Origin: Halopseudomonas pachastrellae | GTDB lineage: Bacteria; Pseudomonadota; Gammaproteobacteria; Pseudomonadales; Pseudomonadaceae | NCBI RefSeq assembly: GCF_900114765.1 | Contig: NZ_FOUD01000004.1 | Span: forward strand, 124,001-188,000 | Direction of reading: 5' to 3' | DNA length: 64,000 nt | In this document: positions 56,602 to 60,994 of the stretch, one piece after another | How positions within the stretch are numbered: position 1 is the first letter of the stretch | Layout of the letters: each line of letters opens with the position of its first letter | The notes under the pieces: model-generated | The model's database searches: none | Told to the model about the DNA's origin: nothing | The model's input: only the letters and a program-made list of their open reading frames with translations | Made by a program: the position numbers and the translations under genes

Positions 56602-58521
56602 ATGGGATCTGTTCGACGTTCGCGCAAAGAAGACGCATCGGCCTGGACCGTGGCAGACAGCCGCAGTGTCTACGGCATTCGCCATTGGGGCGCGGGCTAT
56701 TTCAACGTCAATGAACAGGGCCATGTCGAGGTCATGCCGCGCGGCCCGGAGGCAGGCAGTATCGACCTGCACGAGCTGCTAGGGCAGCTGCGCGAGAGCG
56801 GACTGGATCTGCCGTTGCTGGTGCGCTTTCCGGATATTCTGCAGGCGCGGGTACGCCAGTTGACCGGCGCCTTTGACCGCAACATCGAGGCGCTGGAGTA
56901 CGGCGCCGGCTATACCGCGCTTTATCCGATCAAGGTCAACCAGCAGGAAGCGGTGGTGGAGAACGTCATCGCCACCGAGAGCGTCTCCATCGGCCTGGAG
57001 GCAGGTTCCAAGCCTGAACTCATGGCGGTGCTGGCGCTGGCGCCCAAGGGCGGCACCATTGTCTGCAACGGCTACAAGGACCGCGAGTTCATCCACCTGG
57101 CACTGATCGGCCAGAAGCTCGGCCACAATGTGTTCATCGTGATCGAGAAGGAGTCCGAGGTCCGGCTGGTGATTGAGGAGGCGGAAAAGCTCGGCGTCAC
57201 GCCGCAGGTAGGGCTGCGGGTACGGCTCTCCTCGCTTGCCTCCAGCAAGTGGGCCGACACCGGCGGTGAGAAGTCCAAATTCGGGCTGTCTGCCGCCCAG
57301 CTGCTGCGCGTGGTTGACACCTTCCGGGCGGCCAATCTGCAGGACGGTGTGCGTCTGCTGCATTTTCACATGGGCTCACAGATCGCCAATCTGGCCGATT
57401 ATCAGCACGGTTTCCGCGAAGCCATTCGCTACTTTGGCGAGCTGCGCGCGCTAGGGCTGCCGGTCGACCATATCGATGTTGGCGGCGGCCTGGGCGTGGA
57501 CTATGACGGCACCCACTCGCGCAATGCCAGCTCGATCAACTACGACGTCAATGAGTACGCGCATACGGTGGTGGGCATGCTACGTGACTTCTGTGATGAG
57601 CAGGGGCTGCCGCACCCCCACATCTTCTCCGAGAGCGGGCGGGCGATGACCGCGCACCACGCGGTGCTGATTGTGCAGGTGACCGACGTTGAGCGTTACA
57701 ACGATGTGATGCCCGAGATCGAGGACCTGGACGAGTTGCCGGCGGTGGTGCGCAATCTGGTGCGACTGCAGGATCAGCACGATATCGAAATGGTCACCGA
57801 AACCTACTGGCGCGCAACGCACTATATGGCTGATGTGGCGGCGCAGTATGCCGAGGGCAAGCTCAGCCTGTCTGAAAAGGCGCTGGCAGAGCAGTGCTAC
57901 TACGCGTTGTGCAATCGCTTGCATGCCCAGCTGAAGGCCCGTCAGCGCTCTCACCGCCAGGTGCTGGATGAGCTGAACGACAAGATGGCTGACAAGTACA
58001 TCTGCAACTTTTCGGTCTTCCAGAGTCTGCCGGATACCTGGGCGATTGATCAGGTGTTGCCGATCGTGCCGCTCGACCGGCTTGAAGAAGAGCCCCTGCG
58101 CCGCGCGGTGCTGCAGGATCTGACCTGCGACTCCGATGGCAAGATCCGCCACTACGTCGATGAGCAGAGCATCGAGAATACGCTGCCGGTGCACGACCTG
58201 CGCGAGGGTGAGGACTACCTGCTGGGGATTTTCCTGGTGGGTGCCTACCAGGAGATTCTGGGTGACATGCACAACCTGTTCGGTGACACCGACTCGGTCA
58301 ACGTGTACCTGCGTGCCGATGGCAAGGTGGTGCATGGTGGCATCGAAACCCACGACACTATCGAAGACATGCTGCGTTACGTGCACTTTGCGCCGGATGA
58401 GCTGGTGACACTGTACCGTGACAAGGTCTCCGGTGCGCGCCTCAGCCCGGCCGAGCGCACGCGCTTTGTCGATGCGCTGCGGCTCGGGCTGACGCGTTCT
58501 TCCTACCTTAACGCCGAGTAA
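56602..58521 (+). CDS. speA: Biosynthetic arginine decarboxylase
   Basis: A 639-residue group IV PLP decarboxylase. The N-terminus reads [16 protein letters not shown]. The PLP lysine is in [19 protein letters not shown] and [15 protein letters not shown] follow, and the C-terminal catalytic Cys region is [13 protein letters not shown]. It makes agmatine for putrescine synthesis. Length is standard. Its ATG is 75 bases beyond the MITE-like element, so the native promoter may be displaced or supplied by the element. The stop codon lies inside a 33-base palindrome. Confidence 0.97.
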
Positions 58522-58536
58522 CTCGGCGTTAAGGTA
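58504..58536 (+). terminator. Palindrome spanning speA stop codon
   Basis: TACCTTAACGCCGAGT and ACTCGGCGTTAAGGTA are perfect 16-base arms around a single A. The arms include the last codons and stop of speA. RNA would form a long stem with a small loop. No T-tract, so terminator activity is uncertain. Confidence 0.5.
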
Positions 58537-58603
58537 GCACTGATTAATTCCGCATGCCCAGCCTGTACGCCCCGTAGGGCGAGTGGAATTGGCCAGTGCT
58601 TCC
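58537..58603. repeat. REP-like hairpin element, copy A
   Basis: GCACTGATTAATTCC and GGAATTGGCCAGTGC form an imperfect 15-base inverted repeat (13 of 15 pairs) around a GC-rich core with CGCCC/GGGCG. It fills the whole gap between speA and the convergent gene and resembles the element at 56086-56141. Confidence 0.62.
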
Positions 58604-59320
58604 TTAGGCCGCCTGTTTCTGCAGACTGATCCAGGTGGCCTCGGCCCAGCCCACCGGCTGGCCATCTGCTGTGTAGATAGCGGTGCCGGCCTGGTGCTTG
58701 CGGCCATCGTGGGCGATGGCCCAGCCGGTTACGACCAACTGCTCGCCGACCTTGATCGGGCGCTCGATGTGCGCGGCAAAGCGGCCTAGCAGGGCAACGC
58801 CGGCCTGATCTTTCACGGCAAAATAGCCGGGACAATCCAGCGCCGCCCAGACAAATTCCGGAGCAACCGTGCCGTCACCGGCGTCCAGCGTGCTGTCTGG
58901 CGTCCAGGGGCAGGCTACGGTGCTGTCACGACCGGTCACCGGGCCGGTGTGCAGCAGCAGGCCGTCGTGCTCGCAGCGGTCGGTACCGCAGACAAAACAG
59001 CCGGGCAGGCCATGCTGCTCGTAGCCGCTGAAGCGGGGGCGGGCGGCTTCGGCGTCGGCCAGGCTGACGGCGGGTGGCAGCGCCAATGCAAGCTGATAGG
59101 GGCGGGCGCTGCCGAGCAGCGTCTCGCCTTGCAGCAGGCGGGCGCCGTCTGCGTCGCGTACGATCACAAGGTCGGTGTCCAGCGGCGGCGGTGCGTGCAG
59201 GGTGACCTGTGCGGGTTCGCCCAGGGCGTTGGTCAGCAGGCCGCAGACGTAGCCGCCGTTGCCGCTGTTCGGCGGACCGCAGAAACGTTTGCGGATAATG
59301 GTCGGTATGGTGTTTTGCAT
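58604..59320 (-). CDS. Predicted double-hotdog / thioesterase-like protein
   Basis: A 238-residue protein I do not firmly recognise. The first half has RKRFCGPPNSGNGGYVCGLL. The middle has a Cys cluster, GCFVCGTDRCEHDG (C108, C111, C116). The second half (about 150-235: EFVWAALDCPGYFAV, GRFAAHIERPIKVGE, DGQPVGWAEATW) has the look of a thioesterase/hotdog domain. It is the last gene of a tight minus-strand operon, 10 bases after the halohydrin-dehalogenase-like gene. ATG 59320 follows AAGGAAG. It could handle an acyl or small hydrophobic substrate, but no reaction can be assigned. Confidence 0.6.
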   Translation of the reverse strand: MQNTIPTIIRKRFCGPPNSGNGGYVCGLLTNALGEPAQVTLHAPPPLDTDLVIVRDADGARLLQGETLLGSARPYQLALALPPAVSLADAEAARPRFSGYEQHGLPGCFVCGTDRCEHDGLLLHTGPVTGRDSTVACPWTPDSTLDAGDGTVAPEFVWAALDCPGYFAVKDQAGVALLGRFAAHIERPIKVGEQLVVTGWAIAHDGRKHQAGTAIYTADGQPVGWAEATWISLQKQAA

Positions 59321-59330
59321 CGTATCTTCC

Positions 59331-60011
59331 TTAATGGCTCCAGCCGCCGCAGACTGGGAACACCTGGCCAACGAAACAGTTGGCCGCGTCCGAGCACAGA
59401 TAGGCGGCGAAGTGGCTGTCTTCTTCTGCCGAGACCAGTCGCCCAAGCGGCACTTCGCGTTGCAGACGCGCCTGAAACGCCGGATTGGCCTGAATCTCGG
59501 GTGGGAAATAGGTGGGGTTATCGACAAAGTTCTGGGCGATGGCGTTGACCTGCACACCCTTGCCTGCAACCTCGGCGCCCACGGCTTGCACCCAGGCCAG
59601 CTGGGCACCGCGCGCGGCGCTATAGCTGGAGGCGCGCTTCATGCCGCGCAGGGCTGAGGCACTGCCCATCAGCACAATCTTGCCATGGCCGCGCGCAGTC
59701 ATGGCCGGCAGCACAGCGCGGGCAAAGCGGGGCAGCGGGTCGACCATGTGGCGAAACAGCAGGCCCCATTCTTCGTCCTCTACCTGATCGGCTGGCGTAT
59801 TCGGCGCGGGCACGCCCAGATTCAGCAGCAATACATCAACGCTGCCTGCTTCGGCGATCAGCTTCTGCGGCGCCTTCGGGTCCAGAAAGTCGCGGTTGTC
59901 GGCGATCAACTCCGCGCCGCAGGCTTGCAGCGTGCGCTGCAGCGCCGGCCCCATGAAATCCGCTGCCTGGGTCAGCAGGATGCGCTTGTTACTCAGATCA
60001 CACAGGCTCAT
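59331..60011 (-). CDS. Predicted halohydrin dehalogenase (SDR fold, S-Y-R triad)
   Basis: A 226-residue SDR-fold protein that has lost the dinucleotide motif and carries the two halohydrin-dehalogenase signatures: T14-x4-F19-x-G21 in TQAADFMG, and S117-x12-Y130-x3-R134 in the segment ending YSAAR. The Arg replaces the SDR lysine. The loop QNFVDNPTYFPPE occupies the position of the halide-binding site, and the end GQVFPVCGG matches known enzymes. Such enzymes convert vicinal halohydrins to epoxides, or open epoxides with cyanide, azide or halide, without cofactor. An epoxide hydrolase gene lies 14 bases upstream, which strengthens the call. Activity is untested. Confidence 0.85.
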   Translation of the reverse strand: MSLCDLSNKRILLTQAADFMGPALQRTLQACGAELIADNRDFLDPKAPQKLIAEAGSVDVLLLNLGVPAPNTPADQVEDEEWGLLFRHMVDPLPRFARAVLPAMTARGHGKIVLMGSASALRGMKRASSYSAARGAQLAWVQAVGAEVAGKGVQVNAIAQNFVDNPTYFPPEIQANPAFQARLQREVPLGRLVSAEEDSHFAAYLCSDAANCFVGQVFPVCGGWSH

Positions 60012-60025
60012 CGTTCCTCTCCCTG

Positions 60026-60994
60026 TCAGGTTGCGGGGAAGTGACGCTCCAGAAACGGCAGCAGCAAGCCGTTTACATCGGCAGGCTTCTCGGCCTGAAT
60101 CCAGTGGCCGCAGTCGGCAATCACATGCTGTTCGACCTGCGGCACCACGCTGGGCATTTTCTTGATGGTATAGGCTTCCAGTGCGCCAACCGGGTCACGG
60201 TCGCCGATCAGGAACAGGGCAGGTTGTTCGATCTGGCGGCCGGCCAAGGGCTCGGTACGCTCCCAGTTGCGCTCAAAGTTGCGATACCAGTTTATCGGGC
60301 CGCAGAAGCCGCTTTGCTCAAAGGTGTTGACGTAGACCTCGAAGGCCTCGTCGGAGCACCAGGCGGGTTGCCGGCCCGGGTCGGTGTAATCCTCGAGCCA
60401 GGCTGAGTCGGCCGGCTTGTCCTGTACCAGAGCGCCGCCTGCCTGGCTGTCCAGGCCGTGCATCATCAGGCGCATGGTGCGCGGGATATCCGCGGCCAGT
60501 TCGGCTTCGGCCGGGCCCTGGGTCTGGAAGTACAGCATGTAGTGGAACTTGTCCTTGTAGGCCTCGCGCATCATGTTGATCGCCGGCTGACGCGGGCGTC
60601 CGCCGAAGGGCACCGACAGGCCGCACACCGCCTTGACGCGGGCTGGCTCCAGTAGTGCCAGGTGCCAGGCAATGGGGGCGCCCCAATCGTGGCCGATCAT
60701 GGCTACCTGCTCATGGCCGAAATGGTTCATCGCGCCCTGAATGTCACCGCAGATGGTGATCAGGTCGTAGGCCTCGACCGCTTCTGGTGCCTCGGTAGCA
60801 CCGTAACCGCGCATTTCCGGGGCAAAAACCCGGTAACCCTGAGCTGCCAGCGCAGTGATCTGATGGCGCCACGAGTACCAGCACTCGGGAAATCCGTGCA
60901 GCAGCCAGACTGGCTTGCCGCTCTCGGGGCCTGCGATATGCACACTGAGCTGAATGCCGTTGACCTTGATCAGTTGTTGTTGTGTCTGCTGCAT
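60026..60994 (-). CDS. Epoxide hydrolase (alpha/beta fold)
   Basis: A 322-residue soluble epoxide hydrolase. It shows HGFP (H33-P36) for the oxyanion hole, nucleophile Asp103 in GHDWGAPIAW, lid tyrosines in MLYFQTQGPAE (Y155) and NWYRNFERNW (Y237), an acid in GDRDPVG and His297 in DCGHWIQ. Using Asp instead of Ser as nucleophile together with both lid Tyr separates it from esterases. It would hydrolyse an epoxide to a diol. First gene of the three-gene operon. ATG 60994 follows GGAGA. Confidence 0.9.
   Translation of the reverse strand: MQQTQQQLIKVNGIQLSVHIAGPESGKPVWLLHGFPECWYSWRHQITALAAQGYRVFAPEMRGYGATEAPEAVEAYDLITICGDIQGAMNHFGHEQVAMIGHDWGAPIAWHLALLEPARVKAVCGLSVPFGGRPRQPAINMMREAYKDKFHYMLYFQTQGPAEAELAADIPRTMRLMMHGLDSQAGGALVQDKPADSAWLEDYTDPGRQPAWCSDEAFEVYVNTFEQSGFCGPINWYRNFERNWERTEPLAGRQIEQPALFLIGDRDPVGALEAYTIKKMPSVVPQVEQHVIADCGHWIQAEKPADVNGLLLPFLERHFPAT

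Follow-up and report, generated by a model that had tools for sequence, protein, structure and literature searches.

The stretch of DNA analysed here (the window) comprises 64,000 nucleotides (nt) of Halopseudomonas pachastrellae (assembly GCF_900114765.1, contig NZ_FOUD01000004.1, positions 124,001 to 188,000 of the forward strand). Positions 58604–60994 of the window hold three minus-strand open reading frames (ORFs) in the order epoxide hydrolase (EH), halohydrin dehalogenase (HHDH) with a short-chain dehydrogenase/reductase (SDR) fold, and a hotdog protein. The gaps are 14 nt between EH and HHDH and 10 nt between HHDH and the hotdog gene; an earlier reading of the letters without database searches (the sequence-only reading) had given this layout, and the same coordinates were recovered from the ORFs. 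The genes and the residues discussed below are as follows (aa, amino acids).

60026–60994, minus strand: epoxide hydrolase, alpha/beta hydrolase of the EphA/soluble epoxide hydrolase (sEH) type, 322 aa (Pfam Abhydrolase_1, PDB matches)
60686–60688, minus strand: codon of the EH nucleophile Asp103 (GHDWG), aligned with EphA and sEH
59331–60011, minus strand: halohydrin dehalogenase, D type, 226 aa (sequence match to 7b73, tree, fold)
59949–59972, minus strand: HHDH motif 1, T-x4-F-x-G, residues 14–21, nucleophile pocket (definition in PMC4989007, section 5)
59610–59663, minus strand: HHDH motif 2, S117-x12-Y130-x3-R134, catalytic triad (same definition)
58604–59320, minus strand: double-hotdog, thioesterase-like protein, 238 aa (AlphaFold2 model, TesB/ACOT folds)
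59249–59260, minus strand: N21-G22-G23-Y24 of the hotdog protein, invariant, where the first central helix begins (40-row alignment; model helix 22–33)
58835–58837, minus strand: Asp162 of the hotdog protein, invariant, lying in the second central helix and a candidate for the catalytic acid (40-row alignment; helix 154–173)

By eye, a Shine–Dalgarno-like stretch lies upstream of each of the three ATG starts. The convergent speA gene (56602–58521, with arginine decarboxylase domains) and the hotdog gene have their ends 82 nt apart. By sequence, the nearest named relatives are proteins of H. pachastrellae and a contig of Pseudomonas abyssi. All three genes are under purifying selection: the ratio of non-synonymous to synonymous substitution rates (dN/dS) between the window and four relatives is 0.04–0.10 across the set, and 0.07–0.10 for the hotdog gene. 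Terminator matches at the operon are at chance level, and co-transcription of the three genes is predicted solely from the short gaps and the recurrent gene order described below.

Assignment of the three proteins

The middle gene is predicted to encode a D-type HHDH (HheD), an assignment well supported by motif, phylogeny and a predicted fold. According to section 5 of a 2016 review (PMC4989007), HHDHs are defined by sequence motifs, among which T-x4-[FY]-x-G lies close to the N terminus. In the window protein, motif 1 reads TQAADFMG, motif 2 is present, and the SDR cofactor motif TGxxx[AG]xG, for which the protein was searched, is absent; the combination on which the sequence-only reading had based its prediction was thus located in full. 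Residues T14, F19, G21, S117, Y130 and R134 are invariant across a 14-row alignment. The pair of motifs is found in 101 of the 102 rows of HHDH type (L042 fails motif 1) and in none of six ordinary SDRs of the window's genome. Among solved structures, the closest by sequence are 7b73 (309.7 bits), 8xxb (284.8 bits) and HheB 4zd6 (156.8 bits), the best non-HHDH SDR structure scoring 84.7 bits. The PDB titles identify 7b73 as HheD2, a name also used in PMC9629495, and 8xxb as a triple mutant of HheD8 with chloride. A quick tree of 108 rows, with HheB and HheD as its references (A, C and G types not placed, SDR L008 omitted), separates the 102 HHDH-type rows from the six SDRs of the same genome with a Shimodaira–Hasegawa-like approximate likelihood ratio test (SH-aLRT) value of 99, the SDR branches being very long, and places the window protein in a clade with HheD2, HheD8 and HheB. 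A position inside FabG-like SDRs, named by the sequence-only reading as evidence against a dehalogenase, was looked for by sequence; the protein groups with HheD2 and HheD8. The AlphaFold2 model has a mean predicted local distance difference test (pLDDT) value of 84.1, with residues 119–125 below 50, and its top fold match is HheD2 7b73 (template modelling score 0.90–0.93). In structural alignments the protein is 60–64% identical to HheD2 and HheD8, with which it has both motifs and the fold in common. Among the closest known systems is the HheD subfamily, with HheD2, HheD8 and HheD12 of Halopseudomonas pelagia.

The first gene is, by sequence, well supported as a complete EH of the EphA/sEH type. 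It matches EphA (PDB 5cw2) with 273 bits and human sEH with 225 bits, both over nearly the full length. The residues found are D103, D267, H297, Y155 and Y237, together with HGFP at positions 33–36; we take D103 to be the nucleophile, H297 and D267 the charge-relay pair, HGFP the oxyanion motif and Y155 and Y237 the lid tyrosines. The nucleophilic Asp, the His-Asp pair and both lid tyrosines are also those of EphA and sEH (5cw2, 4jnc), and alignment with these proteins places D103, Y155 and Y237 where an Asp-nucleophile EH with two lid tyrosines, as previously proposed, would have them.

The third gene encodes a protein that is modelled as a double hotdog with a TesB/ACOT-like fold and that has no family assignment from Pfam or NCBIfam. 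The AlphaFold2 model (pLDDT 92.5) contains two hotdog halves, in agreement with the initial hotdog-like guess, in a fused arrangement that matches TesB/ACOT folds in the PDB (3cjy, 4r9z, 1c8u, 3b7k). The protein is 7–13% identical to these thioesterases, from which its family differs by the invariant NGGY and C-F-V-C-G stretches. The invariant Asp162, on the second central helix of the model, may act as catalytic acid. Pfam and NCBIfam scans of the window protein gave no match at an E-value of 0.001, and its score against Acyl-ACP_TE (16.3 bits) is below the cut-off of 23.7. Among 40 relatives, 4HBT_3 was matched in five at E-values of up to 10, the best being 8.8e-4. Membership in TesB was considered and rejected: set as a profile against nine TesB sequences of relatives, the protein reached an hhalign probability of 3.6%. 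A fused SDR-hotdog protein in a H. pachastrellae record (P0012, 385 aa) was likewise discarded as a Rosetta-stone link: it looks like a frame-shifted joining of the two genes in one assembly, because the linker is similar to the sequence that, out of frame, leads up to the hotdog start codon within a 334-aa open frame.

Gene order and distribution in Halopseudomonas

In a survey of 37 Halopseudomonas genomes, the window's own included, speA was found in all 37, EH in 36, the hotdog gene in 24 and HHDH in 22, and EH is present with or without HHDH. HHDH lies next to EH, on its downstream side and on the same strand, in 17 of the 22 HHDH-bearing genomes, with up to 84 nt between matches, and HHDH and the hotdog gene adjoin in 12 (up to 145 nt), a thirteenth (G022) having one gene between them. 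The three-gene order, for which the sequence-only reading had proposed a search, therefore recurs in 12 of the 37 genomes, the window's own among them, and this recurrence together with the low dN/dS argues that the arrangement is more than chance. The suggestion in that reading that a conserved third gene could reveal a natural substrate fares less well: the gene adjoins HHDH in 12 of 22 genomes, but it is elsewhere or missing in the rest. A scan of named genomes gave 11 loci from the genus, overlapping with the 37 genomes, in which EH precedes HHDH in every case and the hotdog gene comes next in seven; in three loci (L221, L223, L229) the reading frames of EH and HHDH share 4 nt.

Within the HHDH tree, one genus clade comprises 18 genomes (SH-aLRT 97), namely the 17 with adjacent EH and HHDH and G028, where the two lie 2.1 kb apart, whereas G015, G024, G027 and G029 form a second clade (SH-aLRT 100) at another locus. 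HheD thus probably entered once beside EH in the 18-genome clade, and the HheD of the second lineage, at a different chromosomal site, was probably acquired separately. The quick tree as a whole suggests two acquisitions in the genus, although a single one would be compatible with its starred branches taken by themselves. In genomes lacking HHDH, the order EH–c9 (Vut_1)–c14–speA was present in 10 of 13 stretches fetched, and in G030 (L235) the order EH–HHDH–c9–c14–c19–speA reads as an HHDH inserted after EH. The stretch from speA to EH (58522–60025 in the window) is a variable site in Halopseudomonas, with a gene content that differs between genomes; the varying genes encode a Vut_1 transporter, a GGDEF-like and a sensor-like protein (both by eye) and the hotdog protein.

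A predicted route from halohydrin to diol

We lean, by a narrow measure, towards a reading in which the three genes form a chromosomal operon for a route from halohydrin via epoxide to diol that grew by accretion and in which the hotdog protein acts on a linked acyl thioester. In this scheme, HheD, with Ser117, Tyr130 and Arg134 and a halide pocket in place of the NAD site, would close a vicinal halohydrin to an epoxide with release of the halide. The co-expressed EH (Asp103, the Tyr155/Tyr237 lid and His297/Asp267) would hydrolyse the epoxide to a diol, thereby pulling the reversible HheD step forward. The accretion presumably started from the near-universal EH near speA, with HheD captured directly downstream and the hotdog gene then put, or retained, in third place. 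Most likely, the hotdog protein would hydrolyse or bind an acyl thioester linked to the substrate or product of the route. In line with acyl-CoA (coenzyme A) substrates, an HheB/HheD-like HHDH at another kind of locus stands after acyl-CoA dehydrogenase and MaoC-like genes: two congeneric genomes (G457, G495) carry a run of two acyl-CoA dehydrogenase genes, a MaoC-like gene, this HHDH (51% identity in G457) and a luciferase-like gene, headed in G457 by an enoyl-CoA hydratase gene; the G495 contig ends before that point. In L269 (2860–9109) and L312, the HHDH of this run overlaps the MaoC-like gene by 4 nt. The run was seen in these two genomes, with an HHDH-type match in 22 of 36 family genomes searched. 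Stretches of 20 of the 22 were inspected, and the census is partial because, of 17 stretches, 14 show a called HHDH and three (L315, L316, L319) none.

The pairing of HheD and EH is known in kind. According to the 2016 review, just two of the HHDH genes then known lie in one operon with an EH, which is taken to use the epoxide made by the HHDH (PMC4989007); the passage leaves these two HHDHs unnamed, so one could be from Halopseudomonas. The halohydrin–epoxide–diol pairing put forward by the sequence-only reading is supported in its enzyme assignments, but the idea of an EH-HHDH operon is not new. The pairing here is the same as in those operons, with adjacency in 17 genomes of the genus and the hotdog gene third in 12. 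HHDHs of P. pachastrellae, P. aestusnigri, P. pelagia, P. sabulinigri, P. salegens and P. oceani are tabulated in PMC6922532, which proposes a marine role for HHDHs and whose main text contains no occurrence of 'epoxide hydrolase'. In PMC9396626, a natural-product pathway has a halohydrin-closing step for which the enzyme is given as unknown, and known HHDHs are referred to as xenobiotic degraders. In the open-licence literature searched, we found no paper that places a hotdog or thioesterase gene in one operon with an HHDH, and none mentioning the hotdog gene. The recurrent EH-HHDH pair with a third, double-hotdog gene is a modest novelty that has a fair prospect of leading to a natural substrate. 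The hotdog link itself is unproven, and the genus provides a natural panel (EH only, EH and HHDH, EH with HHDH and hotdog) for a substrate search by deletion and exposure.

Several observations weigh against the proposed route. In four of the 22 HHDH-bearing genomes of the genus, HHDH lies away from the EH locus (L241, L242, L244, L247). Beyond the genus, we examined 69 named HheD loci (65–73% identity; genes called by script, several loci ending at contig ends). An EH-like gene was near-absent there, with a single weak alpha/beta hydrolase match within five genes, on the opposite strand (L058, 27.6% identity), and a 34% EH match about 7.6 kb from HheD in L066, so that HheD does not generally require an EH at its side. 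Likewise, in a class-level sample of 370 genomes, two of the eight other HHDH-bearing genomes (G388, G457) have an EH (E-values up to 1e-60), in each case on another contig. Neither a halogenated substrate nor a halogenase or a transporter is linked to the operon. The window's genome gave no match to Trp_halogenase (PF04820), a blunt probe because the model also matches in five of 14 control genomes, and a search for sigma-70-like promoters at the operon found none, which says little because 0.8 matches are expected in shuffles. The remaining points concern the hotdog gene and are taken up with the first alternative.

The strongest competitor, which we regard as quite possible yet tentative, is that only EH and HHDH truly belong together and that the hotdog gene is a portable passenger, arrived or retained at the variable EH–speA stretch, with an unrelated task. 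The gene occupies other sites in 10 of its 24 carrier genomes, stands by speA without HHDH in G019 and is present in four of 15 HHDH-less genomes. Four of the off-site copies (G018, G027, G028, G031) lie beside one gene group that is dnaX/recR-like by eye. On the hotdog tree, the operon copies split into two groups; three label changes are needed, of which starred branches force two, and one of the three arises since G022 was scored as non-operon. None of the 69 outside loci, some of which end at contig ends, has a hotdog gene within five genes of HheD. In the class-level sample, eight HHDH-bearing and six hotdog-bearing genomes besides G000 show no overlap, a result without power because only 0.13 co-occurrences are expected. 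Against a mere passenger stand the gap of just 10 nt between HHDH and the hotdog gene in the window, the purifying selection on the hotdog gene and the co-occurrence of the two genes, also where they are far apart: the hotdog gene is found in 20 of 22 HHDH-bearing versus four of 15 HHDH-less genomes (Fisher p 9e-5, without correction for phylogeny), and in 18 of 19 versus four of 14 when genomes at least 90% complete are considered (p 1e-4). Yet contrasts on a speA and EH tree of 33 genomes (G004, G015, G017 and G025, without speA or EH loci, were omitted) yielded only three independent pairs and no support for linked gain and loss, and correlated gain and loss was dropped as an explanation. 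Once phylogeny is considered, the association has no power and is unproven.

A further alternative, which we judge unlikely, is a parallel epoxide defence in which HheD opens epoxides with an anion such as chloride, bromide, nitrite or cyanide beside the EH. The HHDH reaction is described as reversible and as accepting other anions, with other physiological functions left open (PMC4989007). EH is near-universal in the genus and HHDH looks added, and in 15 of the 69 outside loci HheD is preceded by a gene for glyoxalase I, another electrophile-detoxifying enzyme. On the other hand, it can be reasoned that EH alone should remove epoxides irreversibly, that opening with halide makes a reactive halohydrin, and that nitrite or cyanide pools are not known here.

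A more specific form of the halohydrin-to-diol route is, in our estimate, distinctly improbable: the natural substrates would be halohydrins that derive from unsaturated fatty acyl chains or from comparable lipophilic acids, and the operon would serve the clean-up or salvage of halogen-damaged lipids. Hypohalous acids are common at marine surfaces, and their addition to double bonds forms halohydrins. HheD would convert these to epoxy acids, the sEH-like EH would yield diols and the double-hotdog protein would cut the acyl thioester. If true, this would give D-type HHDHs a first natural substrate.

That the middle gene is an ordinary NAD(P)-dependent SDR beside an EH is most improbable: Pfam general SDR families score above cut-off, databases name the relatives SDR oxidoreductase and the 25 NCBIfam models listed are SDR models (each below cut-off), but the cofactor motif is absent, Arg replaces Lys in the triad, the protein clades with HheD2, HheD8 and HheB (SH-aLRT 99, very long SDR branches) and its best fold match is HheD2.

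HheD loci in other bacteria

The rarity of HHDHs assumed by the sequence-only reading agrees with their presence in nine of the 370 class-level genomes (the window's own included), but less so with the 480 stretches encoding relatives among 84,980 species. The glyoxalase I gene that directly precedes HheD in 15 of the 69 outside loci (family tested on one representative) occurs mostly in Comamonadaceae. In Comamonadaceae such as Limnohabitans (L041, L044, L046 and 12 further loci), it lies 8–55 nt upstream of HheD. In four SAR92/Porticoccaceae loci, a GNAT gene precedes HheD. A universal HheD partner was considered and not seen. On contigs labelled Rickettsia typhi (L058) and Akkermansia muciniphila (L061), HheD falls among proteobacterial HheDs, and the HheD neighbourhood in L061 is of the Comamonadaceae type; both bin labels are probably wrong.

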